A stretch of DNA of 64,000 nt. Source: an uncultured SAR116 cluster alpha proteobacterium. Lineage in GTDB: Bacteria > Pseudomonadota > Alphaproteobacteria > Puniceispirillales > Puniceispirillaceae. Where the stretch lies: assembly GCA_902622515.1 (NCBI GenBank), contig CACNQE010000010.1:1-64000 (forward strand), written 5' to 3'. Of the stretch, positions 5,675 to 30,028 are shown one piece after another (within the stretch, counting starts at the first letter, position 1; each line of letters begins with the position of its first letter). The position numbers were made by a program, and so were the translations under genes. Under the pieces are notes generated by a model, which was not told the DNA's origin, ran no database searches, and saw only the letters and a program-made list of their open reading frames with translations.

Positions 5675-7128
5675 TCTTTTTGTTCCAATATTGGGTCAAA
5701 CCAATACCTTCCTTCTTTTATAAGTATTTTATCCTCAGGTCCCATTGAGTCAGCAGAATATATTTCAGGGCTTTTTTTGCGAACCTTTTCAATTACTGGG
5801 TCGATATAATCCCATGCTGCTAAAACCTCGTCGGAACGCATGAATAAAGTTTGATTTCCGCGTGCAATATCCATAAGAAGTCGTTCATAAGCATCAGGCA
5901 ATCGTTCTGCAAAGGTTTCATCAAAGGAAAGATTTAACTCTGAGGGAAATAATCTCATCCCTCCGGGTCCTGGTTTTTTTGATGTTAGATGTAATCTTAA
6001 TCCCTCGTGAGGTTGCACGCGTATTACAAGTCGATTAGGAAACTCATCATTTGCATTTTCTCCCTGTTCAGAAAAAATATCATGTGGTCGATTTTTAAAA
6101 GTAATTACAATTTCACTTGCACGCAAACCTAACTTTTTTCCTGTACGTATGTAAAAGGGCACACCAGCCCAACGCCAATTATCTATATTTACTCTCATTG
6201 CAACATATGTTTCCGTGTTGCTCTGAGCATTTAATTCTTGTGTGTAATTTTCATATTGACCAATTTGTATTTCATCATCCTCTATTTTTCGAAGCGCTTG
6301 CAGAACTCTCAATTTTTCATTTCTGACTTGGTCGGCGTTAAAACGGGAAGGCGGTTCCATTGCTACAAGACATAATAATTGTAACATATGGTTTTGAACC
6401 ATATCACGCAAAGCACCATAAGAATCATAATAAGAAGCGCGTTGTTCTACCCCAACTGTTTCCGCGGTAGTTATTTGTACATGTTCTATGTAGCGATTGT
6501 TCCATTGGGACTCAAAAATAACATTCGCGAATCTTAAAGCCATAAGATTTTGGACTGTTTCTTTGCCTAAATAATGGTCTATTCGATATATTTGCCCCTC
6601 ATCAAATACGTTTAGAATTTCTTGATTTAAAGCAAGTGCAGACTTTTTATCATGGCCAAATGGTTTCTCTACCACCACTCGACTTTGTGGTAGAACCAAT
6701 TTATTCTTTTTGAGAAGAAGACAGCTCGTACCAAATAATTTGGGGGCTACCGCAAGATAGAATACACATGGTCTTTCCTTGGAGAGTTTAGGCCTGAGAG
6801 TATTATATAGGTTATCGGCTCCAATTTCGTTGATGATATCTAATTCTAATATCTGGATGAGTTCAAGAAAACTCTCCCAGCTCGCAGCATTCGCAAACTG
6901 ACTTTTTAGAGCTTCTTCACAAAAAGGGCGTAATTTATCTGCAAATTCCTTTTTTGTTAAAACGTTTCTCATACATGATATTAATCGAAAGTTGTGTGTT
7001 ATTTGACCATTTAAAAATCGCCAAAAAAGAGCTGGAAAAATCTTTCGAATAGATAGGTCACCGCTACCACCAAATATTATGAAGTCACTATCATGTGTAA
7101 TGGCAGATTCTGGTAACGCTTGATTCAT
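5671..7128 (-). CDS. zwf: Glucose-6-phosphate 1-dehydrogenase
   Basis: Zwf oxidises glucose-6-phosphate to the lactone with NAD(P)+, feeding the Entner-Doudoroff pathway. The 485-residue product has the Rossmann dinucleotide motif GGSGDLS (20-26), VEKPFG (153-158) and the active-site signature RIDHYLGKE (182-190), followed by the long C-terminal G6PD domain. It is the promoter-proximal gene of a five-gene operon. The 283 bp upstream, before the decayed permease, presumably hold the operon promoter; I could not assign a specific box. Confidence 0.97.
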   Translation of the reverse strand: MNQALPESAITHDSDFIIFGGSGDLSIRKIFPALFWRFLNGQITHNFRLISCMRNVLTKKEFADKLRPFCEEALKSQFANAASWESFLELIQILELDIINEIGADNLYNTLRPKLSKERPCVFYLAVAPKLFGTSCLLLKKNKLVLPQSRVVVEKPFGHDKKSALALNQEILNVFDEGQIYRIDHYLGKETVQNLMALRFANVIFESQWNNRYIEHVQITTAETVGVEQRASYYDSYGALRDMVQNHMLQLLCLVAMEPPSRFNADQVRNEKLRVLQALRKIEDDEIQIGQYENYTQELNAQSNTETYVAMRVNIDNWRWAGVPFYIRTGKKLGLRASEIVITFKNRPHDIFSEQGENANDEFPNRLVIRVQPHEGLRLHLTSKKPGPGGMRLFPSELNLSFDETFAERLPDAYERLLMDIARGNQTLFMRSDEVLAAWDYIDPVIEKVRKKSPEIYSADSMGPEDKILIKEGRYWFDPILEQKE

Positions 7129-19656: not shown

Positions 19657-20517
19657 TTATTGTGAGGTAAATAGCTCTCTGAAATGGATTACCTTTTCCC
19701 ACTCAGAGGCTAAGTAAGGCTGAGATTTAATAAAATTTTCAGGGGGCTCGCTTCTTTTCATTTTCTGGCTTTTTATCAGTTTAGTTTCTTTTTTGTTTAC
19801 TAAACTCACTGCAAGCTTTGAATTTGTGAGTTCCTTTTCATCGCTCACTGTTATATTGGGATAGCTTGTGGGACCGATGCTAACTTTTTCTGGCTGTATT
19901 AAACTTTCTGAGATTTTAATGCTAGAGGATGCGGTCGTTGGTTCTACAATTGGTTGTGGGTGGTTCTTCCAAACAGCATTTACTTTTTGTAGATAAGGTA
20001 TATTTTTTTTTGTGTCAGCTGAGTGATAATATTTGATTGCTAATTCCCAATCACCATGAGTCTGATATAATTCCTCGAGAAAAACAGCTGCGTAGGCGAT
20101 ATTTGTATAAGGGTCAAGCATTGACTCTGGTGAGCTGAAAGCGTGTGAATGCCATTTTACGCTTATTTGCATGCATCCTATGTCTATATGAGTATTATCA
20201 AATTCCTTCTGCTTGATGATATAGTCAACAGCAGATTTATGAGTATCAAAAAAAAGACCTTTCCCATTATCATTTATCGTCCAAGGCCATGCTCTGTAAA
20301 CACCAGTATCCGTTTTCCGACCCGACTCAACCCTTGCAATAGATGTAAGAATTCCACTTGGTAGATTAAAAGCATTTTCTGCCTCCACTGCCACCGTTTC
20401 ACACACATTGAGGTCAGAAAAATGCGTGCTTGCATGTAATTTCGAACTTAAAAGGAACAAAAACAAAAGTAGGAAGTTGAATGTATCAAGCAATTTATTT
20501 TGATATTTTTTTTTCAA
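19657..20517 (-). CDS. Lytic transglycosylase, SLT family
   Basis: The 286-residue periplasmic enzyme should cleave peptidoglycan glycan strands. A signal peptide ends near LHA (residue 29). The SLT domain follows, with GILTSIARVESGRKTD holding the catalytic Glu64, then DIGCMQISVKWH and DPYTNIAYAAVFLEELY, and the KYYHSAD motif. The C-terminal third (after about residue 190) is low-complexity and polar. The gene is convergent with the dioxygenase (2 bp apart). A -24/-12 promoter lies 52 bp upstream, so it may be sigma-54 driven, like other genes in this envelope/motility block. Confidence 0.9.
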   Translation of the reverse strand: MKKKYQNKLLDTFNFLLLFLFLLSSKLHASTHFSDLNVCETVAVEAENAFNLPSGILTSIARVESGRKTDTGVYRAWPWTINDNGKGLFFDTHKSAVDYIIKQKEFDNTHIDIGCMQISVKWHSHAFSSPESMLDPYTNIAYAAVFLEELYQTHGDWELAIKYYHSADTKKNIPYLQKVNAVWKNHPQPIVEPTTASSSIKISESLIQPEKVSIGPTSYPNITVSDEKELTNSKLAVSLVNKKETKLIKSQKMKRSEPPENFIKSQPYLASEWEKVIHFRELFTSQ

Positions 20518-20568: not shown

Positions 20569-20584
20569 AGCAAGCAGTATGCCA
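20569..20584 (-). promoter_or_regulatory. Sigma-54 (-24/-12) promoter for lytic transglycosylase
   Basis: Minus-strand sequence TGGCATA-CTGC-TTGCT fits the sigma-54 consensus TGGCACG-N4-TTGCW, with invariant GG and GC dinucleotides at correct spacing. The expected start site is about 40 nt before the ATG at 20517. Confidence 0.72.
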
Positions 20585-20635
20585 AAATTGTTTTCCAATT
20601 TTTTAGTTATTAAGAATATTGATAATGATTTCTGA

Positions 20636-21025
20636 TTATTTAGTGCTGAATGTCTCATTCATTGATTTGAAAACATTCATCATGCGTTCTGGAACATTAC
20701 AGTATGATTTAAGAGTTACATATGGGGCAACAGGTTCTAAGTCACCGTCATAGCTTACATTCTTAAAAGCAGGGTTAGTCACTAAACGAACTCTTTGGTC
20801 AGACATTGCAGTTATTTGGGCGATTCCACCCTTGAAAACAGCTGTAGCCCCAGTTTCATATACCTCCAGTGCGAAAGTACTTTCATGAAATTCACAACCA
20901 TTATCTAATTTTGCTGTAACAAAAACCATTTTTGGAGGTTCCGGTTTTAGGATCAACTCCCATAAGAAAAATAGAGAAACGCTGGCTAAAAATAAAGCAA
21001 CAATTGTGATACTGGCTTTTTTCAT
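20636..21025 (-). CDS. Unknown single-pass membrane protein in bactofilin operon
   Basis: I do not recognise this 129-residue protein. It has one N-terminal hydrophobic segment (residues 5-25), then a mainly beta-predicted soluble part probably in the periplasm, with two Cys (in NGCEFHES and KSYCNVPER) that could form a disulfide. It lies 30 bp after the third bactofilin on the same strand and before the lytic transglycosylase promoter. Context suggests an accessory to the bactofilin scaffold. Confidence 0.6.
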   Translation of the reverse strand: MKKASITIVALFLASVSLFFLWELILKPEPPKMVFVTAKLDNGCEFHESTFALEVYETGATAVFKGGIAQITAMSDQRVRLVTNPAFKNVSYDGDLEPVAPYVTLKSYCNVPERMMNVFKSMNETFSTK

Positions 21026-21055
21026 TTTTTGTGACTAATTTTTTGTTTCTTAAAA

Positions 21056-21385
21056 TTAACCTTTTTGAAGTTTTGAAATACTACCACTGACCTCTGCGCC
21101 AACATCTATCGCAAGTTCATCAGTTAGAATAGAACCTTCAAACTTTGCTGAACTTGTCAGTTTAAGACTTTTCGTTTGGATATCGCCATTAACTTTTCCA
21201 CCAATCTCGGTTGATTGAGCAAAGATCTTTCCGTTAAAAGTGCTTCCAGATTCCAACTTTACATCAACAGCGCGCATTTCTCCTTTGTAGTGACCAGCTA
21301 AAACGACTGTTGAACCTTTTGCAGAAGTTACGTCTAGTATGCCGTCCATTTTGATTTCGGGTGAGATATAAGTTACGTCTGCCAT
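21056..21385 (-). CDS. Bactofilin (third of three)
   Basis: The 109-residue product is a bactofilin-domain protein, the polymer-forming beta-helical cytoskeletal family. Short repeated strands with hydrophobic/Gly periodicity are clear: GSTVVLAGHYKGEMRA, SGSTFNGKIFAQSTEIGGKVNGDI, KFEGSILTDELAIDVGAEVSGSI. It is the shortest of the three paralogues and lacks long charged tails. It starts 3 bp after the second bactofilin gene, so co-translation is likely. Bactofilins scaffold wall enzymes at defined sites, fitting the nearby M23 and SLT genes. Confidence 0.88.
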   Translation of the reverse strand: MADVTYISPEIKMDGILDVTSAKGSTVVLAGHYKGEMRAVDVKLESGSTFNGKIFAQSTEIGGKVNGDIQTKSLKLTSSAKFEGSILTDELAIDVGAEVSGSISKLQKG

Positions 21386-21388
21386 GAT

Positions 21389-21796
21389 TTATGCCTTTTC
21401 TGCTGATGTTTGTTTATTATTAGAGTCGGAGGCCTTTTGTTCTTCGGACTCAGCCACTTCTTGTTCGGGTATAACCTTTTCATCCCAGTTTTGTATAACT
21501 CGGCAATTTAGAGCAGCTCCTCTATCTAATTGCAGAGATTTATATTTTATTTCACCGCTAACACGCGAAGAGGGCATCAGCCAGACACTATCTGCATTCA
21601 TATTTCCATCATAGCTCCCTGAGACGACTACTAGCTTGGAGTTGATTGACCCTCCGAATTTTCCAGTTTCATTAATTGTCAACTTTTCTGTTGTAACATC
21701 TGCCTCTACAATTCCACTAACTTCTATGGTAGAAGCGTTTGAAATTTTCCCTTTGAAGTGTGCTCCTGCACCAATGGTGGTCATTTTTTCAGCCAT
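21389..21796 (-). CDS. Bactofilin (second of three)
   Basis: The 135-residue bactofilin has the classical opening TTIGAGAHFKGKISNASTIE followed by repeat strands EVSGIVEADV, KFGGSINSKL, GSYDGNMNAD and RVSGEIKYKS, then GAALNCRVIQ. A Lys/Glu/Ser-rich tail of about 25 residues may be disordered. It lies 78 bp after the first bactofilin and 3 bp before the third. Paralogues in one operon may co-polymerise or have separate partners. Confidence 0.9.
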   Translation of the reverse strand: MAEKMTTIGAGAHFKGKISNASTIEVSGIVEADVTTEKLTINETGKFGGSINSKLVVVSGSYDGNMNADSVWLMPSSRVSGEIKYKSLQLDRGAALNCRVIQNWDEKVIPEQEVAESEEQKASDSNNKQTSAEKA

Positions 21797-21874
21797 TTTA
21801 TTTTTCTTTCATTCTAGTTATCATAAAATCGAGTTACCCTTTAAGGTTTTATATTTTGATCACTTTTGATTTTT

Positions 21875-22303
21875 CTATAAGAGTTGATTATCTCCTTTAG
21901 TCGATTTGGATACAGTTTCTCCAGTTTTTGGTTTTGTATGATTTCGAGCTTTTTCGCCTGACGGGTCATGATTGAGTTTTGCTTCTAGGTTAGCTCCCGA
22001 ATCAATTGCGATTCGCTCATAAAACACTTCACCATTAAAAGATGCGTTGCTACTTATCTCAAGTGCTTCTGTTTTTATTGTCCCGCTGACATTGCCACCG
22101 ATGCTGACTGAATTTGCTGAAATTGTAGCTTTTACGATTGCATCCTCTTCTACAATAAGGTCACTACAGTTGATAGTTCCCTTAAGTTTACCAACCACAC
22201 GCATGATTCCATTACATTTTATGTCCCCAACAACTTCCATCTCTGATCCAATAACGGATTCAGACATTCTGTTTTGGGTAGAATTTTTATCTAACTTCGC
22301 CAT
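21875..22303 (-). CDS. Bactofilin (first of three)
   Basis: The 142-residue product is the promoter-proximal bactofilin. The core shows VIGSEMEVVGDIKCNG, GKLKGTINCSDLIVEEDA, VSIGGNVSGTIKTEALEI and SFNGEVFYERIAIDSGANL, a right-handed beta-helix rung pattern. The polar N-terminal 15 and C-terminal 30 residues look disordered; such tails tether some bactofilins to membranes or partners. A strong -24/-12 sigma-54 promoter lies about 140 bp upstream, divergent from the M23 operon. Confidence 0.92.
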   Translation of the reverse strand: MAKLDKNSTQNRMSESVIGSEMEVVGDIKCNGIMRVVGKLKGTINCSDLIVEEDAIVKATISANSVSIGGNVSGTIKTEALEISSNASFNGEVFYERIAIDSGANLEAKLNHDPSGEKARNHTKPKTGETVSKSTKGDNQLL

Positions 22304-22441
22304 AGTATTTTAAACCTATAAAAGTGAATCCATAATTATAAATAAATAATTTTGTCTGTCGTTATTTAATATAGAAAACAAATGATATATTATTAAATTG
22401 TTTCTAACATAAAAGTTGTACGTCAAAAACTCTTATAACGT

Positions 22442-22457
22442 TGCAACGATTATGCCA
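22442..22457 (-). promoter_or_regulatory. Sigma-54 (-24/-12) promoter for the bactofilin operon
   Basis: Minus-strand TGGCATA-ATCG-TTGCA matches the sigma-54 consensus at both elements with exact spacing. It predicts a start near 22430 and a leader of about 125 nt before the first bactofilin. Confidence 0.75.
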
Positions 22458-22468
22458 AGTATTCACAA

Positions 22469-22888
22469 ATGAATATTTGTTTTGGAAACTCTTCTGAAAG
22501 CCAAAGGGTGGTTGATGTGTCTAATGATGTAATTGATATTCGTGAACGAATTGAGAAGATAAGAGAAGCAGTGGAAAATAATCCTGTTGGTAAAACTGGC
22601 ACTGATACGATAATTCCAGTTTCAAATACGGTTGAACTAGACTCGATAGTAACAGATAATCAGAGACAACTTAAGGCAGATGTGAACACTCAAATGTTGC
22701 AATCATCAGCAACTGAAATGTTGTCATCAGTGGATAGTTCAACTTCCAAAAAACAACAATCTTCATATCCTTCAATTAAACTTGATATAAGCAACCAGTC
22801 CCGTAACATAGGCCTTTATCTAATGCTTGGTATTCAGATACTGACTAATATGATTTTGATTTTTCTTTTGTATAGAATGAGCTTGTAA
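22469..22888 (+). CDS. Unknown C-terminally anchored membrane protein
   Basis: I do not recognise this 139-residue protein. Residues 15-40 (NDVIDIRERIEKIREAVE) look helical, the centre is polar and Ser/Gln-rich, and a single hydrophobic helix lies at the C-terminus (about 114-137), suggesting a tail-anchored protein with a cytoplasmic N-terminal part. The stop overlaps the ATG of the M23 gene by one base (TAATG), so the two are translationally coupled. It may connect the M23 enzyme to the cytoplasmic bactofilin scaffold, which is inference. Confidence 0.65.
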   Translation: MNICFGNSSESQRVVDVSNDVIDIRERIEKIREAVENNPVGKTGTDTIIPVSNTVELDSIVTDNQRQLKADVNTQMLQSSATEMLSSVDSSTSKKQQSSYPSIKLDISNQSRNIGLYLMLGIQILTNMILIFLLYRMSL

Positions 22889-24411
22889 TGAGAAGTTGGC
22901 TTTGGTCAAAAATCGAACAACGCTTGCCTCGTATTATTGATAGTACACAGGTCAACCATGCCGTGGTAGGACAGGACAAGCCATGGTACTTTTCAGAGAG
23001 ACGATTCTTAGTTTTTGGCAAGAAAGGTCCATGGGAACTTGTAATAAAGCCAAGACATGTTGGAATTTCCGCATTATTGTTTTCTAGCTTCATTTTTACT
23101 TTGGGGTATTTTTCTGTGCAAACAATTAATACTGCTCTAAGTGTTGCTAATCAGGAATTAATCAGTCCAGCAGATGCGAGTTTAATTGCAACCCAAAAGC
23201 ATTCAATCGAATTAGAAAAATTGCAGGACAAACCGCTTATATCAAATGTTGTGTCAACTTTTGGCCCTCTAAAAAAAGACAATTCAATCGCAAATTATCT
23301 TTTTTCAATGAAGGTAAAAGATATAAAAAATACAATAGAAAAACTTAACAATACGAAAAATATCGACAATTGGCACGATCAACCTCTTGAGGCTATTTAT
23401 GAAAATTTTGAATCAAGCAATATTTTACTCGAAACAAAAAAAATAAGGGAACAAATGCTGTCATCTTTTGAACAGAAAGAATCAAACCCAATGTACCAAG
23501 AGATACAGATTGTTATCAACGTTCCCAAGTTAAATGAAAAGTCTAAACCAAGTATGGTAAACAATAACTCTGATGACAACTTAAGCCACTCAAATAAGTC
23601 TGCTTTTGATATTGAAACTAAAGCTCCCTCAATAAATGGTGCACCACAAAATTTTGATGGTATGGTTGAATCTAAACCCTATTTCATGAACTCTGAAGCC
23701 GTATCAATTACAAAAGAAAATTTGGGACCAAATAACATACCCACGATATTGGATGACACAATCCGAGGAGCAAGGTTTTTGAAATCGATAGACCGTGAGG
23801 TAGAAGTTATAGAAAAGGTTTTTAATGAATTAGGTATTAAACTGTCTGTTCCAGAATCAGCTGAAATTCAATTAGCTAATTTCAATTGGCCTATGGAACC
23901 AGGGTCAATAGATTATTTGGAATACATGAGGAAACAATTTATTAGATTAGATGTATATAGAGATGCATTAACATCACTACCTCTTCATTCCCCGATGAAA
24001 TATTATTATATTTCAAGTAAATATGGAAAGAGAAAACATCCAGTTACAAAAAAATGGGCGATGCATCATGGGATTGATTTAGCCGGCACCTGGCAAGAAA
24101 AAGTGAGAGCAACTGCCGACGGAACAGTTATTTCCTCTGGATGGGAAGGGTCTTTTGGGAGAGTTGTAAGAGTTCAACATCGATTTGGTATTGAGACTGT
24201 TTATGCACATCTAGCACGTTTAAATGTTAAAAAAGGTGACTATATAACCGCGGGCGATATTGTTGGTTCCATGGGGTCAAGTGGAAGGTCTGATGGGGCA
24301 CACTTGCATTATGAGATTAGGGTGAATAACAAATCTAAAAATCCAAAACAATTTTTTGACGTAGGACAATCTTTATTAAGTCCAAGTAGTTTGCGACCTT
24401 CAGCTTTTTAA
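22888..24411 (+). CDS. Membrane-anchored M23 family peptidoglycan endopeptidase
   Basis: The 507-residue product has a cytoplasmic N-terminal stretch of about 55 residues, one transmembrane helix (about 57-80), a long polar periplasmic linker, and a C-terminal LytM/M23 domain. Zinc ligands are visible: His393 and Asp397 in the HxGID motif (MHHGIDLAG) and His474 in HLHYE. GTVISSGWEGSFG and HLARLNVKKGDYI are standard M23 strands. It probably cleaves cross-links in the wall. M23 proteins sit beside bactofilins in several bacteria (for example helical-shape genes of Helicobacter and LmdC in Hyphomonas), so this divergent arrangement supports a shared role. Confidence 0.92.
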   Translation: MRSWLWSKIEQRLPRIIDSTQVNHAVVGQDKPWYFSERRFLVFGKKGPWELVIKPRHVGISALLFSSFIFTLGYFSVQTINTALSVANQELISPADASLIATQKHSIELEKLQDKPLISNVVSTFGPLKKDNSIANYLFSMKVKDIKNTIEKLNNTKNIDNWHDQPLEAIYENFESSNILLETKKIREQMLSSFEQKESNPMYQEIQIVINVPKLNEKSKPSMVNNNSDDNLSHSNKSAFDIETKAPSINGAPQNFDGMVESKPYFMNSEAVSITKENLGPNNIPTILDDTIRGARFLKSIDREVEVIEKVFNELGIKLSVPESAEIQLANFNWPMEPGSIDYLEYMRKQFIRLDVYRDALTSLPLHSPMKYYYISSKYGKRKHPVTKKWAMHHGIDLAGTWQEKVRATADGTVISSGWEGSFGRVVRVQHRFGIETVYAHLARLNVKKGDYITAGDIVGSMGSSGRSDGAHLHYEIRVNNKSKNPKQFFDVGQSLLSPSSLRPSAF

Positions 24412-24538
24412 AAAATAAAGATAATCGCTAAAAGTTAGGTTAATTGAAGAATTAAAATTTATTAAATTTTCCTAAATAAAATTTTTTTTTTGCCGTACTC
24501 ATTTAGTTCATAAATTGAATGGGAATGAGGTAAAGATA

Positions 24539-24838
24539 ATGGGTTCTGTAATATATTTGCATGAAAGATATAAAACGATTAATGCTGAATTTGAAGATAT
24601 TGCCTCTGATGATGTGCTTGAACAAAGACGTTTAGAGTCAATCAGAGACGGAGTTGAATCTATGTTAAGTTTGATTTCTGGCATCCGAAAGGATCCTGAA
24701 GCAGTAGCTTTATCATCCGCGAGATTTGGAATTATGCGTATGTGCCAGCTTTATGGGCGTGCTGAAACCATTGCATTCGTTGGTAGATGTATTGATACAG
24801 TAGAAATGGCTGAAGATGCCTTGAATTACACTCCCTGA
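24539..24838 (+). CDS. Small protein of unknown function
   Basis: I do not recognise this 99-residue, mostly helical, soluble protein. The ATG at 24539 is preferred over an upstream TTG at 24515 because GAGG lies 9 nt before it. The sequence has an acidic helical middle (DVLEQRRLESIRDGVESMLSLI) and a C-terminal part with two Cys (MRMCQLYGRAETIAFVGRC). It lies between the M23 gene and the sigma-54-driven small gene, in a block otherwise devoted to envelope and motility. Confidence 0.6.
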   Translation: MGSVIYLHERYKTINAEFEDIASDDVLEQRRLESIRDGVESMLSLISGIRKDPEAVALSSARFGIMRMCQLYGRAETIAFVGRCIDTVEMAEDALNYTP

Positions 24839-24951
24839 AATCTTGATGCAAAATTTATAATGAGAATTTTTTTCATTGAGCGTGGATTTTAGACAGTGAC
24901 TATGTTCTTGAATGAAAATTTTGTATAAAAACAATTTTGAATTCAAAAAAT

Positions 24952-24967
24952 TGGCATAGGAAATGCA
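24952..24967 (+). promoter_or_regulatory. Sigma-54 (-24/-12) promoter upstream of small unknown gene
   Basis: TGGCATA-GGAA-ATGCA fits the sigma-54 consensus with GG and GC at proper spacing (one mismatch in the -12 TTGC). The expected start site is near 24979, 25 nt before the TTG start of the next gene. Confidence 0.65.
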
Positions 24968-25003
24968 AGCTTCTTTCTGTAAAAATGTAAGAAGGAAAAT
25001 ACT

Positions 25004-25210
25004 TTGCAAAATCAATTAAAAGGTTTTATTGCCCCTACAAGAAACAAAAAAAATCATATCGAGAATAATAATTTTTTAAATTTGGAACCAAGCCGTATAG
25101 GGATTCAGTTGGTAAGATTCGATGAAAATAATAAGCGTACTTCGTCAGCAAAAGTGGCTATGACTCACTTCCTAGCTCCAGTAAGCCAATCTTCGCCAAT
25201 GTTTGAGTAA
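25004..25210 (+). CDS. Small protein of unknown function behind a sigma-54 promoter
   Basis: This short gene would encode 68 residues from a TTG start. Support comes from context: a good ribosome site (AAGAAGGA, 8 nt before TTG) and a -24/-12 promoter just upstream. The protein is basic and polar in the N-terminal half, has no membrane segment, and ends in a Ser/Pro-rich stretch. I recognise no domain. It is convergent with rpoN, 144 bp between stops. Confidence 0.5.
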   Translation: MQNQLKGFIAPTRNKKNHIENNNFLNLEPSRIGIQLVRFDENNKRTSSAKVAMTHFLAPVSQSSPMFE

Positions 25211-25354
25211 AATTAATCTATTTAAAATTTAACACCTTGGAGTCTGTTTGAAAACTAGTTTTCAATTTATAAAGATTTACATATTTTTTTGTTGCCCTTT
25301 TTAACTTTTCTTTAATTCAAGTTGTAAATAATCGTTGTTGTTCTATCTCTAATT

Positions 25355-26845
25355 TTAGATAGCCATATTTAACTTTGCTCTGCGTCTGCGCTCTGACGAT
25401 GGAGGAATTTTCATCATTTCTCGATATTTTGCAACTGTGCGACGCGCTAATTTAATTCCTTTTTGGCAAACTAAAGCCGCTATAGCATCATCGCTTAATG
25501 GTTTTTTTGGGTTTTCATTTGATATAACTGTTTTTATTAAATGACGAACAGCTGCTGCTGCAGTTCCATCACCAGATTCTGTTCTAGCTATTGAAACGCT
25601 AAAAAAAGATTTTAATGTAAAACATCCTTTTGGTGTTGACATTAAAAGTCCGCTGGTAACTCGGCTCACAGTGCTCTCGTGCATATTTACAGCCGCAGCC
25701 ACATCTTTTAAAGACAGTGGTTTTAAACCTGACAAACCTTCTTTGAAAAAATCAGTTTGTTGATTAACAATTTCTCCAGCAATTTTTAATGTCGTATTAT
25801 TGCGTTGCTCTAATGAGCGCTTCAGCCATCTTGCCGAACTAACTGAGTCTGAAGCAAAAGATTTCACTTCTTCGTCTTTCTTATTTCGTGCAGAACTATT
25901 TATTTGCTTGGCATATTTTTCGTTTATGACTAAAGAGGGCAAAGTTGAACGATTTAAATCTACGATAAATCCATCAGAGCTCTCGCTTACAATAATATCG
26001 GGCGCATTTACAGATAAATATTCTGTGTCGAACGTAGCTGCTGGTTTTGGATTAAAACTTCGTATAATTTTGAGTCTTTTTGATATTTCCCCTATTTCTG
26101 TGTTTGCTTTCTTCGCTATGATTGCAAGCTCACCTTTGCCTAACAATTCCAAATTTTCAAGAATGGTTGCCATTATTCTATCATAGCAATCTTGCTCTTT
26201 TGCTTGCAGCGTTAGACACTCTGATAAATTCCTTGCAAAAAGCCCGGCCGGCTCAAAAGCTTGTAATTTTTGGAGTACAATTTCAATTTGTTCAACATCA
26301 CATTTACAAATAGAGGCTATCTCCAAACAAGTTTTTCCTAGCCATCCAGATGCTTCAATGGCATCTGCAAGCATGCAGGCAATAAACTTTTCTTTTGTAT
26401 TCTTTATATTAAGCTCAATCTGTCGCAATATATGAGTGTTTAGATTATCAGTCTGAGTTGGAACATTTGATATGATGTCATCCCAATTAGAGTCAGCAAT
26501 TTGATTTTTGGGTTTGCTATTTCCCAGGTCTAGCGCGGAAGAACTGTATCGATTGTCAAAATCTTTGTTTTCAGTTGGATCATCTCCAACTGCTGCGATA
26601 ACATTGTCTGCTGACTCAATATCTGTTTGCTTCCCAGAGTTTTCTAAACTCTCTGAAGACGGCGTTTCTCTTATAATAGTATCCTCACAGGAAACCTCCA
26701 AAAATGGATTTTCTAGAACTTCATTCTCTAAATAATTTTTTATATCCAAGTTTGTCATTTGCAACAATTTAATAGCTTGTTGCAGCTGCGGTGTCATAAC
26801 CAGTGATTGTTTTTGTTTCTGACCTAATGATGGAATTAATTGCAT
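25355..26845 (-). CDS. rpoN: RNA polymerase sigma-54 factor
   Basis: RpoN directs core polymerase to -24/-12 promoters and requires an ATPase activator to open them. The 496-residue product has the Gln-rich region I (QKQKQSLVMTPQLQQAIKLL), an acidic region II (about 50-130), the core-binding domain, a helix-turn-helix (LKDVAAAVNMHESTVSRVT) and the RpoN box ARRTVAKYRE (about 467-476). It lies in the middle of a set of candidate sigma-54 promoters. No bacterial enhancer-binding protein gene is present in the window. Confidence 0.97.
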   Translation of the reverse strand: MQLIPSLGQKQKQSLVMTPQLQQAIKLLQMTNLDIKNYLENEVLENPFLEVSCEDTIIRETPSSESLENSGKQTDIESADNVIAAVGDDPTENKDFDNRYSSSALDLGNSKPKNQIADSNWDDIISNVPTQTDNLNTHILRQIELNIKNTKEKFIACMLADAIEASGWLGKTCLEIASICKCDVEQIEIVLQKLQAFEPAGLFARNLSECLTLQAKEQDCYDRIMATILENLELLGKGELAIIAKKANTEIGEISKRLKIIRSFNPKPAATFDTEYLSVNAPDIIVSESSDGFIVDLNRSTLPSLVINEKYAKQINSSARNKKDEEVKSFASDSVSSARWLKRSLEQRNNTTLKIAGEIVNQQTDFFKEGLSGLKPLSLKDVAAAVNMHESTVSRVTSGLLMSTPKGCFTLKSFFSVSIARTESGDGTAAAAVRHLIKTVISNENPKKPLSDDAIAALVCQKGIKLARRTVAKYREMMKIPPSSERRRRAKLNMAI

Positions 26846-27036
26846 CGGTTCCTCCTATTCATGGATCTACCCTAGATAAATTCAAAACAATAAATCAAAA
26901 CCTTAATTTGACATTGAGGATGGTTAGTTTTTTGACAAAAAAATATATGAATAACAGTAGTTTATACCCTATAAGTTTTTTAAGAATTTTGCTGATGTCA
27001 AATATCAGACAAATTAATTGAGGATAATGCGACGTT

Positions 27037-27052
27037 TGGCATAGATTTTGAT
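27037..27052 (+). promoter_or_regulatory. Weak sigma-54-like element upstream of small membrane protein
   Basis: TGGCATA-GATT-TTGAT repeats the same -24 box found elsewhere in this block, but the invariant GC of the -12 element is GA here. It lies 48 bp before the ATG at 27100. Low confidence. Confidence 0.3.
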
Positions 27053-27099
27053 TTGAGATAGCTTTACAAAACAAAGAAGTTATTTAAAGATTAACTTTT

Positions 27100-27378
27100 A
27101 TGCAAAAAAGGAACGATGGTTTTTATATGATTACGTCAAGCAAACATTCAGGTGAAAGAAATGGTGGTTGCAGAAGGTGCAGAATAATAAGGTTATATAT
27201 TATTGCTACAGTATCTATTGTGATTTTAGGATTGATTGGTGGTGATAAATTGCGCTTCTTAAGCTTAGTTACACCAGAGGGAGTTGCTATGACAATATGG
27301 GGTGTTGGAACATTATTTTTTATTGGTAAATTTTCTGTTTGGTTGTTTCAAAAAGCAAAAAGCAAAAAGCAAAATTAA
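27100..27378 (+). CDS. Small two-helix membrane protein, unknown
   Basis: The 92-residue product has a polar N-terminus with Cys-rich NGGCRRCR, then two transmembrane helices (about 32-50 and 65-85). I recognise no family. An alternative ATG lies at 27127. The 3' end contains a tandem repeat of CAAAAAG that encodes the Lys/Ser-rich tail, and the stop overlaps the convergent DUF1566 gene by 4 bp. Confidence 0.55.
   Translation: MQKRNDGFYMITSSKHSGERNGGCRRCRIIRLYIIATVSIVILGLIGGDKLRFLSLVTPEGVAMTIWGVGTLFFIGKFSVWLFQKAKSKKQN
27349..27374 (+). repeat. Tandem 7-bp repeat CAAAAAG
   Basis: There are three full CAAAAAG units plus CAAAA at the 3' end of the small membrane-protein gene. Gain or loss of a unit would change the reading frame of its last codons. 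Confidence 0.85.
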
Positions 27379-27872
27379 CGATCCCGAACAAGTCTAATTA
27401 CAAGGTCTTGAAATGGCATAAATCTTCCATAAGTATGCCCTGTAAAAAAATTCACAGACCACACATGGCGAGGTGAATACGGGTTTTGCTCACCTGTCCA
27501 AAATGGTTCTGCAGGGGTATTTGGAAAAATAGATTTATCAATCTTAGGCCTATCACAATCATGACATACAATATTTTCTAGTTCCTTGCGTGTGGGCAAA
27601 CGCCAATTACCCCCTAATTGTTCGTTTGCCAATTTAATTGCTTGACCTGCCATCTCTTGGTTGAGTTTAACAATCTCACCTATGCATTCGGCGCCATTCC
27701 ATCGTTGGCCAACACTGCATCTAAGCCATTCAACCCCAGATTTAAGGTCAATTACAATATGTTCCTTTGCAATGAATTGTGCGTCGTTGGCAAAGACTGG
27801 CATATTTACATTGGAAAAGAATGTTAGGATAAAAAAACTTATAATAAATTTTATCGTGTAGAAAGCAGGCAT
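27375..27872 (-). CDS. Secreted DUF1566 (Lcl C-terminal-like) protein
   Basis: The 165-residue product has a signal peptide (hydrophobic residues 7-26, then FANDAQF) and a DUF1566/Lcl domain. Family features seen are GVEWLRCSVGQRWNG, the GGNWRLPTRKEL motif, FWTGEQ, and a final VRLVRDR. DUF1566 domains occur in secreted and surface proteins and are related to C-type-lectin-like folds; biochemical function is largely unknown. It lies between the small membrane-protein gene (convergent) and motA (divergent). Confidence 0.8.
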   Translation of the reverse strand: MPAFYTIKFIISFFILTFFSNVNMPVFANDAQFIAKEHIVIDLKSGVEWLRCSVGQRWNGAECIGEIVKLNQEMAGQAIKLANEQLGGNWRLPTRKELENIVCHDCDRPKIDKSIFPNTPAEPFWTGEQNPYSPRHVWSVNFFTGHTYGRFMPFQDLVIRLVRDR

Positions 27873-27968
27873 GCTTGCATCCTTTTTGTAAAACTTACAT
27901 ACTCTAATAAAAAATATAATATGTCGTAAATATAAACGATATCAAAAATTAATATGATTATCGGATTT

Positions 27969-27984
27969 TGGTATCGAATTTGCA
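27969..27984 (+). promoter_or_regulatory. Sigma-54-like (-24/-12) promoter for motAB
   Basis: TGGTATC-GAAT-TTGCA has a perfect -12 element and the invariant GG of the -24 element, with the correct 4-nt spacer. The -24 box differs from the TGGCATA seen at the other sites. It predicts a start about 29 nt before the motA ATG. Confidence 0.55.
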
Positions 27985-28024: not shown

Positions 28025-28786
28025 ATGGATATAGCTTCGCTCGTTGGACTGCTTGGTGCTGTTGGAATGATTATCTACGCTATGATAAGTGGAGGCGGTG
28101 TAGGTCCATTTTGGAACGCTCCATCTGTCCTTATCGTTTTTGGGGGCACTTTCTTTGCCGTGATGTATATGGCGCCCATGGGAGTTTTTCTTGGAAGTTT
28201 TGGTTCAATGGCTAAGGCCTTTATGCCAGGGCTTGGGAAACAAGAAGATTTAATTACTCGAATGGTAGAGTTGGCTGGAATTGCGCGAAAAGACGGGATG
28301 ATGGCACTTGAAGGACAGGACGTTCCAGATAAATTCTTTGCAAAAGGGTTACAAATGCTTGTTGATGGAGCGGATGAAGGAAAGTTGATAGCGCAGCTGA
28401 ATCAAGAAATAAAAGCTATGAAAATAAGACATGAATCAGGTCAGTCGGTAGTTAAAGCATGGGTTGATACTGCACCTGCGATGGGAATGATTGGAACGCT
28501 GATAGGATTGGTGTTGATGCTTGGTAATATGGCTGACCCAAAAGCAATTGGACCTGCTATGGCTGTTGCTCTTTTAACAACATTATATGGAGCTTTTATT
28601 GCAAACGTTATATTTGGTCCTATGCTTACTAAATTAGAAAATTACACCTCATATGAGGTGGTTTATCGCGAAATGGTGGTGCTTGGTTTGAGAAGTATAT
28701 CAAGAGGTGAGTCACCAAGGAATATACAAGACATTATGGCAGCAAACCTCTCACCAAAGGTTCAAGAAGCTCTTGAAGCTGCATGA
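28025..28786 (+). CDS. motA: Flagellar stator protein MotA/PomA (sodium type)
   Basis: The 253-residue inner-membrane stator subunit couples ion flow to flagellar rotation. It resembles PomA more than proton MotA: DIASLVGLLGAVGMIIYAM opening, GGGVGPFWNAPSVLIVFGG, and the near-identical stretch APAMGMIGTLIGLVLML with DPKAIGPAMAVALLTTLYGA. Four transmembrane helices are expected, with a cytoplasmic loop (about 65-150) contacting FliG. motB follows after 54 bp. Use of sodium is inferred from PomA similarity and fits a marine lifestyle. No other flagellar genes are in the window. Confidence 0.94.
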   Translation: MDIASLVGLLGAVGMIIYAMISGGGVGPFWNAPSVLIVFGGTFFAVMYMAPMGVFLGSFGSMAKAFMPGLGKQEDLITRMVELAGIARKDGMMALEGQDVPDKFFAKGLQMLVDGADEGKLIAQLNQEIKAMKIRHESGQSVVKAWVDTAPAMGMIGTLIGLVLMLGNMADPKAIGPAMAVALLTTLYGAFIANVIFGPMLTKLENYTSYEVVYREMVVLGLRSISRGESPRNIQDIMAANLSPKVQEALEAA

Positions 28787-28840: not shown

Positions 28841-30028
28841 ATGGCTGAAGCCGCTGAAAATGAAACTGAGGTTGAAGAAGAAGAGGAAGAATGTCCTAAA
28901 TGTCCTCCGGTAGGAGCGCCGGCTTGGATGGCTACGTTCGCTGATATGGCCACACTTTTGATGGCTTTTTTCGTCCTTATTTTGTCCTTTGCAGAATTTA
29001 ATGTACCAAAATTCAAACAAATTGCTGGAGAATTGAAAAATGCATTTGGTGTTCAGCGCGTTGTTCCAGTTATGGAACCACCTAAAGGTACAACGGTAAT
29101 TTCATTAAGTTTTAGTCCATCTCCCGATCCATCACTCACGAAAAATATGACTCAGCAAACAACAGAGACTTTAAAACCAGAAATAGAAAAGAGGATGGAA
29201 GAGGGTCAGGGTGACCAAGGTGGTGAAGCTGGTGGTGAAAGCGAAGGAACAGGCAAATCTCAAGAAACCGCTGAATTAGCAGCTCAACTACAATCTGCTA
29301 TAGAGCGAGGAGATGTAGAAATAGAGTCAATCGGTGAGAATGTTGTAGTCAACTTTAAATCTAACGACCAGTCAGCTGAAGAATTACAGCAGATGGTCAA
29401 GGAAACCCTTGAAGCTATAGAGAAAGTAAAAAGTGCAACTGGTAAAGTCGAGCAAGAAATTCTATTTGGTGGTTTAGAGGAAAAGTTAGAGCAACTAGCA
29501 GCTACTACTCAAAAACCGGCCTCGGAGCAGCAGATATCGGATGTTGACTCAGACCAAGAACAGCAGCGGGAGAAAGAACAAAAAGCTGAATTAGCAGAAG
29601 AAGAGTTGCAAGTTGCGTTAAAGCAACAGATTGACCAAGGGTTGGTAGCGGTTGAGCGTATTGAAGATAAAGTAATTGTGACTGTTGGTGCCGGCGGAGC
29701 ATTCCCATCTGGCTCTGCGGAATTAACAAATGAAGCAAAAGAAATTATGTCACAAATCGCCAACGTTAGCGCAGACGGAACAAGTACGATTGATGTGTCA
29801 GGACATACAGATAATGTTCCGTTGATTTTTGGTTCAAGATTTAGAGATAACTGGGACCTCGCAGCAGCACGGGCATCAAGTGTGGTTCAATCACTAGAAG
29901 CAACTAAACTTGTATCCGCTGATAGAATGCAGGCAGTGAGTTTTGGAGAGTCTCAGCCTGTTGAAACCAATGAAACTGCAGCTGGCCGAGCTAAAAACAG
30001 ACGTATAGAAATTGTTATAAATTATTAA
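28841..30028 (+). CDS. motB: Flagellar stator protein MotB/PomB with extended linker
   Basis: The 395-residue product is the peptidoglycan-anchoring stator subunit. Its single helix (about 29-50) includes the ion-binding Asp35 in TFADMATLLMAFFVL, followed by PomB-like SFAEFNVPKFKQIAGELK. The C-terminal OmpA-like domain (about 283-395) has SGHTDNVP and RAKNRRIEIV. It is about 80 residues longer than typical PomB. The extra part contains two related segments: 143-197 (ETAELAAQLQSAIERGDVEI) and 248-307 (KAELAEEELQVALKQQIDQG), suggesting duplication of the strand before the OmpA core. The N-terminus is very acidic. Confidence 0.94.
   Translation: MAEAAENETEVEEEEEECPKCPPVGAPAWMATFADMATLLMAFFVLILSFAEFNVPKFKQIAGELKNAFGVQRVVPVMEPPKGTTVISLSFSPSPDPSLTKNMTQQTTETLKPEIEKRMEEGQGDQGGEAGGESEGTGKSQETAELAAQLQSAIERGDVEIESIGENVVVNFKSNDQSAEELQQMVKETLEAIEKVKSATGKVEQEILFGGLEEKLEQLAATTQKPASEQQISDVDSDQEQQREKEQKAELAEEELQVALKQQIDQGLVAVERIEDKVIVTVGAGGAFPSGSAELTNEAKEIMSQIANVSADGTSTIDVSGHTDNVPLIFGSRFRDNWDLAAARASSVVQSLEATKLVSADRMQAVSFGESQPVETNETAAGRAKNRRIEIVINY

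Follow-up and report, generated by a model that had tools for sequence, protein, structure and literature searches.

Conserved sigma-54 sites around rpoN suggest a flagellar regulon in a SAR116-type alphaproteobacterium

Bacteria of the SAR116 group are widespread in the sea and have for the most part escaped cultivation. Here we report an analysis of sigma-54 promoter-like sites in a 64,000-nucleotide (nt) stretch of a SAR116-cluster genome (hereafter referred to as the window), in which five such sites lie around rpoN, the gene for sigma-54 itself, upstream of genes for a lytic transglycosylase (SLT), three bactofilins, a small protein (s68), a small membrane protein (tm92) and the stator protein MotA. 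Their conservation among relatives, along with the activator proteins found in the genome, suggests that these sites are promoters of a flagellar regulon in an organism whose only sigma-54 serves the flagellum, a reading to which we assign a probability of roughly 0.87. An earlier sequence-only reading of the window had proposed that wall remodelling, bactofilin assembly and stator expression are co-regulated; the conserved sites support that proposal, but the regulon appears to be flagellar rather than one of the envelope in general.

Conserved -24/-12 sites around rpoN

The window corresponds to contig C10 in a draft genome of 2.11 Mb (39 contigs, 95% complete), which was searched together with 60 relatives for rpoN, M23 peptidase, bactofilin, FlhA and SLT genes and for the site pattern, and 40 stretches around target genes were used to compare loci. 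Families (f1–f4 and f12) and genera (g1–g17) carry anonymous labels, with g1 of f1 being the window's own genus. The genomes are drafts, often incomplete, with predicted start codons, and counts across relatives are inflated by shared descent. The sigma-54 promoter consensus comprises a GG-N10-GC core within TGGCAY-N5-TTGCW; sites were scored with an untrained weight matrix derived from this consensus, usually at cut-offs of 13, 14, 16 or 16.5. Upstream-region counts omit locus L204 and homologues with an expected start less than 100 nt from a contig end.

Table 1. Putative sigma-54 sites and genes around rpoN in the window
Feature	Coordinates	Strand	Remarks
Sigma-54 -24/-12 site before SLT gene	20569..20584	-	TGGCATACTGCTTGCT
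Secreted lytic transglycosylase, SltF-like	19657..20517	-	PF01464 E 2.7e-7
Sigma-54 site before bactofilin operon	22442..22457	-	TGGCATAATCGTTGCA; window's best score
Three bactofilin genes	21875-22303, 21389-21796, 21056-21385	-	PF04519 E 1.2e-21, 8.1e-21, 6.3e-15
Membrane-protein gene divergent from bactofilins	22469-22888	+	One hydrophobic segment by inspection
M23 peptidase gene	22888-24411	+	PF01551 E 1.8e-30
99-amino-acid gene (s99)	24539-24838		No Pfam or NCBIfam match; no sigma-54 site
Sigma-54 site before s68	24952..24967	+	TGGCATAGGAAATGCA
s68, small-protein family	25004..25210	+	TTG start; convergent with rpoN
rpoN (sigma-54), putatively flagellum-dedicated	25355..26845	-	PF00309, PF04963, PF04552 (all three domains)
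Off-consensus sigma-54-like site before tm92	27037..27052	+	TGGCATAGATTTTGAT; score 11.8
tm92, small membrane protein, 92 amino acids	27100..27378	+	Open reading frame; homologues in relatives; no NCBIfam match
Sigma-54 site before motA	27969..27984	+	TGGTATCGAATTTGCA; score 13.1; off-consensus TGGT
motA, PomA-like	28025-28786	+	NCBIfam PomA 273 bits, E 1.5e-81, below model cut-off 341
motB	28841-30028	+	NCBIfam MotB family E 3.8e-85

All five 16-nt sites named in the sequence-only reading were found at the positions and on the strands it gave, and domain searches identified the genes behind them as encoding an SLT-domain protein, three bactofilins, RpoN and MotA (Table 1). Its statement that every site keeps the GG/GC spacing holds for those at 20569, 22442, 24952 and 27969 (the last with TGGT) and fails at 27037, where GA occupies the -12 position. 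Likewise, its estimate that the set lies well above chance is borne out for the three sites scoring at least 16.5, and by score it does not extend to the motA and fifth sites. Those three sites, preceding the bactofilins, SLT and s68, are the window's three best matches, against 0.43 expected at that cut-off, and none of 60 third-order Markov simulations attained three. The pattern TGGYAYN5TTGCW with at most one mismatch occurs 19 times versus 11.1 expected, a count attained in none of 100 shuffles, and a site scoring at least 13 lies within 200 nt upstream of only 3 of the 59 mechanically called window open reading frames (ORFs) of at least 100 amino acids (aa), namely SLT, bacA and motA. In the genome as a whole, 12 of the 23 exact pattern matches fall outside ORFs; among sites scoring at least 16, 15 are intergenic and 6 coding, a comparison that is biased because the stretches were taken around matches, and it served solely to identify the genes downstream.

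Motif counts by themselves modestly exceed chance, and conservation is the deciding evidence. A sigma-54-like motif could arise fortuitously in an AT-rich genome, and the window holds 6 matches scoring at least 14 where 2.5–3.3 occur in Markov sequence. A site scoring at least 13 lies upstream of SLT in 31/31 genomes of the order (30 of them at 16 or above); TGGT...TTGC precedes motA in 33/33, with 26 scoring at least 13 and seven f4 sites (TGGTC) scoring 10.3–11.0; and the s68-equivalent site reaches at least 15.2 in 34 of 37 rpoN loci. By contrast, upstream regions of control genes from these same loci reach 13 in only 1 of 136 cases (rpoN 1/36, M23 0/34, motB 0/32, s99 0/34), and smaller controls in none (oxy2OG 0/7, u129 0/11, msrP 0/3, aat 0/2, uvrB 0/2). 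The s68 site is missing only from three f3 loci, where M23 extends to 38–66 nt from rpoN. Across relatives the -24 and -12 columns are conserved and the spacers vary: positions 2–5 and 12–15 are invariant before SLT (position 4 is C in 31/31), position 4 is C in 34/34 s68 sites, and before motA positions 1–4 and 12–15 are invariant and 5–11 variable, with T always at position 4. The last observation suggests that the off-consensus motA promoter has been selected for low output or distinct timing.

The block itself is also conserved. The order bactofilins, tm139 with M23, rpoN, tm92, lcl165, motA, motB is kept in the 20 rpoN loci compared, apart from two f2 loci that lack bactofilins, tm139 and M23 and one short contig ending within motA; single block genes were missed by tblastn in some of these loci, and s99, which adjoins the rpoN block in many relatives, varies in position. 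The window's rpoN is 77–80% identical to three full-length counterparts in the nearest SAR116-cluster and Alphaproteobacteria assemblies. The block and its sites recur in three 1.4-Mb genomes of f12, a family of the same class and a different order, where they run M23, SLT with its site, s68 with its site, convergent rpoN, tm92, lcl165, motA site, motA, motB (L265:6010-13177 and L267:6410-14334), and in one of them the sigma-54, SLT and M23 domains were verified by Pfam. The f12 SLT site, present in 3/3, scores 17.8, the s68 site 14.9 in 3/3 loci and the motA site, with TGGT again in 3/3, 13.4 (TGGTAT...TTGCA). Common ancestry or transfer may each account for the f12 block.

The test that the sequence-only reading had set for itself, conservation in relatives, was thus passed for SLT, motA and s68 throughout the order and in the three f12 genomes; for the bactofilin site it was passed within the genus and only patchily beyond. 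Judged by this conservation, four of the five sites are probably genuine promoters. Chance is refuted for the SLT, motA and s68 sites, and as an account of the whole set it is vanishingly improbable; it may hold for the site at 27037–27052. That fifth site pairs a good -24 element with a poor -12 element (TGGCAY...TTGA or TTGT) in 11/11 genomes of g1, g2, g7 and g8, takes the form TGGTAY...TTGCA with a good -12 in 5/5 of f2, and is absent from f4 (0/7) and f3 (0/1); in g4 and g10 a CGGCA-type site lies farther upstream, and tm92 upstream regions reach 13 in 8/31 cases. It is a site conserved in part of the order, off-consensus and with a defective -12 element, and its candidate function is uncertain.

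Between lcl165 and motA, which diverge, two f12 loci contain an overlapping pair of opposite sites (L265:6049-6076 and L266:5360-5387), and this position suggests lcl165 as a further target. In the window (27872–27969) the lcl165-facing site is degenerate (CCGTATTAAACTTGCA); G007 and G008 have a divergent one, and G002 a weaker one (TGGAAC).

Sigma-54 activators and the flagellar hierarchy

The sequence-only reading had noted that no activator gene lies in the window, and a whole-genome PF00158 search agrees, placing all seven matches on other contigs. GxFTGA, the sigma-54 contact motif, occurs in only two of the seven, C3:6628 and C3:7746, both as GSFTGA. The former is FleQ-like, with an AAA+ domain, a Fis-type helix-turn-helix (HTH) and no N-terminal domain; the latter is FleT-like, with an AAA+ domain and no HTH, and downstream of it come fliE, fliF, fliG, fliH and fliI and then an ORF placed as fliJ would be, which Pfam does not recognise as FliJ. 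Both activator genes lie directly before this run of fli genes. The other five comprise an NtrC-like protein (L035:9722-11140) and an NtrX-like protein, both without GxFTGA and named from architecture and neighbours, and three Clp- or RarA-type ATPases by inspection. FleQ and FleT are therefore the only plausible activators found, and since they alone carry the motif, true sigma-54 promoters here, including that of the bactofilins, should answer to flagellar activators.

The same division extends to f1 and f4 relatives. In six further f1 and f4 genomes (G007, G012, G015, G025, G028 and G042), 12 NtrC- or NtrX-like proteins lack GxFTGA and the FleQ/FleT-type proteins have it (in G007 only FleT was found). 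In two f2 genomes (G037 and G043), the NtrC-like protein retains GAFTGA, and all ten sampled f2 genomes carry a second RpoN, 30–37% identical (one copy with an internal stop). Within f2 the flagellar rpoN is present in 7/7 genomes with FlhA and absent from 3/3 without it, and over the sample FlhA and rpoN co-occur (27/29 versus 4/10, p 0.0014, not corrected for descent or gene adjacency). The loss of GxFTGA from NtrC in f1 and f4 would reflect decay of nitrogen-type sigma-54 control, and in these families sigma-54 now appears to be flagellum-only. NtrC-like proteins without the motif can be seen in the f1 and f4 examples L233–L235, L238, L244 and L245.

Further flagellar genes carry sites. In the own genome, intergenic sites precede fliK, fliD, a fliO-like gene, two rod-protein genes, the gene for an LPP20 (FlgP-like) protein and flhA, with that of fliD (AGGCATAAAAATTGCA) 65 nt upstream, and a weak one (TGGCAAGCTTTTTGCC, 11.9) lies 40 nt before the fleT start. 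The genome also encodes an FlgT-like protein besides the FlgP-like one, and its flagellar cluster includes a sigma-70 region 2/3/4 protein (FliA by position) and FlgM (PF04316). Two intergenic sites scoring 18.1 (L037:6489-6504 and L046:5715-5730) have no obvious flagellar gene downstream.

The SLT gene product looks like a flagellar muramidase. It combines a hydrophobic N-terminus, seen by inspection, with an SLT domain, and the FlgJ of this genome is 95 aa long and has a rod-binding domain only, so that a separate muramidase is expected, as with SltF of Rhodobacter sphaeroides, a separate secreted SLT muramidase that works with FlgJ (PMC7277832). Some 6 kb separate the SLT gene from flhA in two genomes of f3 (G044 C4 and G047 C11), and in Phaeobacter the sltF locus tag adjoins flhA (PMC12363192). 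An SLT match was found in 34/61 genomes; 31 of these contributed an upstream region, our own included, G015, G026 and G039 being the exceptions.

On these grounds we propose that FleQ, then FleQ with FleT, would remodel RNA polymerase–sigma-54 at the -24/-12 promoters, driving basal-body and hook genes, the motAB stator, SLT, s68 and, in the own genus, the bactofilins. The SLT muramidase would open the wall for the rod, a bactofilin scaffold (in the own genus) may place the adjacent M23 wall hydrolase close to the flagellum, s68 would act in assembly or feedback, and FliA and FlgM would then run the late genes.

Several observations weigh against this reading. Raw pattern counts are equally high in genomes without rpoN (25 hits in G027), and whole-genome counts were dropped as evidence for that reason; the reversed-pattern control for them differs in composition and probably underestimates chance. 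Some non-target upstream regions are not clean, such as that of lcl165 (at least 13 in 7/34, possibly real), and at a handful of loci stretches upstream of bacB or bacC, lying within coding sequence, score 13.9–14.8. The bactofilin region has no site scoring at least 14 in 14 of 36 loci, and no SLT match was found in the g4, g5 and g10 genomes searched. Co-occurrence with FlhA is weak for bactofilins (p 0.06) and not significant for SLT (p 0.14), neither value being corrected for descent. Four genomes at least 90% complete (G014, G016, G039 and G048) have rpoN without FlhA, and two (G003 and G005) have FlhA without rpoN, possibly through assembly gaps. The fliD gene carries a sigma-54 site although late genes should be FliA-driven, the flanks of 19 own-genome promoters revealed no shared enhancer (5-mer dyads and 7-mers compared with Markov controls), and weak Clp-like PF00158 matches in relatives were left out of the GxFTGA comparison.

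Control of the bacterial exterior has been put forward as a role for sigma-54 (PMC3162934), and the sites could accordingly belong to a general envelope regulon with several activators, NtrC or NtrX among them, as the sites before sugar-related genes on contig C4 might suggest. Such a regulon is highly improbable, since the NtrC- and NtrX-like proteins have no GxFTGA and the three remaining PF00158 matches resemble Clp- or RarA-type ATPases; the sugar genes, moreover, are neighbours of the flagellar cluster and perhaps serve flagellin glycosylation. The C4 sites lie before sugar epimerase, nucleotidyltransferase-like and TPR-like genes (L032:17091-17158, 6892-6907 and 59-74).

Bactofilins and the s68 family

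All three bactofilin proteins exceed the PF04519 cut-off, and their operon is preceded by a site present in 7/7 g1 genomes and identical in 6/7 although BacA is 70–97% identical. Beyond the genus, the intergenic region between bactofilins and M23 holds a site facing the bactofilins in 9/9 f4 and 2/2 f12 loci and one facing M23 in 4/4 g4 loci; in total the bactofilin intergenic region has a site in 22/36 loci, f12 included. No site of at least 14 was found there in g2 (4 loci), g5 (1), g7 (1), g8 (2), g10 (3) or f3 (3); weaker ones score 12.2 in L089 and 13.9 in L090, where the stretch includes coding sequence. Two of the three f12 genomes have the bactofilins, with one site (TGGCAAAATTATTGCA, 14.9) directed towards them and another (13.0) towards M23; in the third, no bactofilin was found in the stretch covered. 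M23 adjoins the bactofilins in the examined bactofilin loci wherever the contig extends that far. Sigma-54 control of the bactofilins thus appears patchy across loci, and in g4 the site faces the M23 operon instead. In f4 (L190–L198), two overlapping opposite sites between the bactofilins and tm139 share TGCA in 9/9 loci (for example, L190:2124-2151), apparently an unusual back-to-back promoter arrangement.

This patchiness would fit a narrower regulon, in which SLT, motA and s68 are the only true targets, the bactofilin site is functionless and the bactofilins shape the cell via another promoter. Besides the genera and family that have no site of at least 14, the sampled f2 genomes lack bactofilins, though 7/10 have FlhA, and the site stands 138 nt before the predicted start, farther than the other sites. 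We nonetheless consider the narrower regulon unlikely: the bactofilin site has the window's best score, its near-identity within the genus outlasts the divergence of BacA, and the bactofilin-facing sites of f4 and f12 repeat the arrangement.

The s68 gene appears to represent an undescribed family of small proteins (56–88 aa) with a fixed promoter. An s68-like ORF lies downstream of the site in 34/34 site-bearing loci of the order, with starts chosen by hand, a Shine-Dalgarno-like stretch before most and a common core of roughly I-x-x-V-x-F-D ... P-L-x-x-x-L; relatives number 33 in the order and 3 in f12. Ratios of non-synonymous to synonymous substitution (Nei-Gojobori) were 0.03–0.31 in the 19 of 27 pairs for which they were computable (7 saturated, 1 without amino-acid change; five of the nine f4 sequences used), indicating purifying selection. 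Of the 33 relatives, 32 were aligned, an identical protein being omitted, and alignment A3 contained 28 of those 33 and two from f12. Searches gave no credible match in Pfam (best E 0.007) or NCBIfam (best 0.023), each best match occurring in 1–2 of 33 members, and none in PDB up to E 1. Among 385 genomes of the class, good matches were found in 4 of the order and 3 of f12, including that of G068 (f12), detected at E 3e-9 though absent from the profile; one own-family genome (G018) among the 385 was not matched. Ten additional matches are weak (E 0.003–0.09), and a second, weak match in the own genome lies at C11:31187-31264 (L262; E 0.019). An AlphaFold model of four sequences is weak overall (predicted local distance difference test 62.8, predicted template modelling score 0.33), with a fairly confident hairpin at residues 33–52, and the s68 core is predicted as a beta hairpin.

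From its promoter and neighbours we infer a flagellar role for s68, and because it lies convergent beside rpoN wherever found, also outside the order, it may be a feedback regulator of sigma-54 or of FleQ/FleT. Taken together, s68 may be a new sigma-54-dependent family in the flagellar programme, possibly acting in feedback and overlooked because it is short and fast-evolving, with the bactofilins and M23 wired into the programme as a wall-opening or positioning module and the motA and tm92 promoters kept weak by selection; we regard this combined proposal as evenly balanced.

Comparison with known flagellar and bactofilin systems

The order resembles a natural experiment in which sigma-54 has apparently narrowed to motility, with NtrC lacking the contact motif where the second RpoN is absent. 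The promoter evidence ties bactofilins to flagellum assembly, brings in a small-protein family that has no name yet and reveals, before motA, a gene-specific off-consensus promoter base kept across all families examined. We found no account of SAR116 flagellar gene control, and none joining bactofilins, motility and flagellar genes in one regulon, in a non-exhaustive search of the open-licence literature.

Csd1 of Helicobacter pylori is an M23 peptidase. The H. pylori CcmA–Csd1 system likewise pairs a bactofilin with a peptidoglycan hydrolase (PMC9507126) and serves cell shape, whereas the neighbours and promoters here are flagellar. The nearest precedent for a bactofilin/M23 scaffold is Bacillus subtilis, in which assembly of the flagellar hook and filament is described as depending on BacE and BacF (PMC4627819), with motility defects later reported to be strain-dependent (PMC9103452); B. 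subtilis is Gram-positive, whereas here three bactofilins and an M23 peptidase lie under sigma-54-like promoters. In the Xanthomonas RpoN2/FleQ/FliA system, rpoN2, vemR and fleQ adjoin and VemR pulled down the bactofilin CcmA; this link is a protein interaction with a response regulator, and the accessible part of the report mentions no bactofilin sigma-54 promoter (PMC9218911).

The closest likeness is to Fla1 of R. sphaeroides, in which FleQ and FleT act with sigma-54-2, and motAB, FliA and FlgM belong to a sigma-54 class (PMC7277832). Both systems have fleT with fliEFGHIJ, a FleQ/FleT pair, FliA with FlgM, and FlgT/FlgP (PMC7277832); here these features appear as two GxFTGA activators, one with an HTH and one without, fleT beside fliE–fliI, and FliA and FlgM. 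R. sphaeroides differs in having four rpoN genes, rpoN2 within the fla1 locus and motAB outside it, and bactofilin is not mentioned in the accessible text of the Fla1 review (PMC7277832), whereas the genome studied here has one rpoN, which adjoins motAB and the bactofilin/M23 block. In Caulobacter, also an alphaproteobacterium, flagellar genes are likewise activated via sigma-54, by FlbD and FliX (PMC3096577). FlbD-type control is not favoured here: unlike FlbD, neither GxFTGA protein matches a receiver domain in Pfam, the pair resembles FleQ and FleT, and FliA- and FlgM-like proteins are present.

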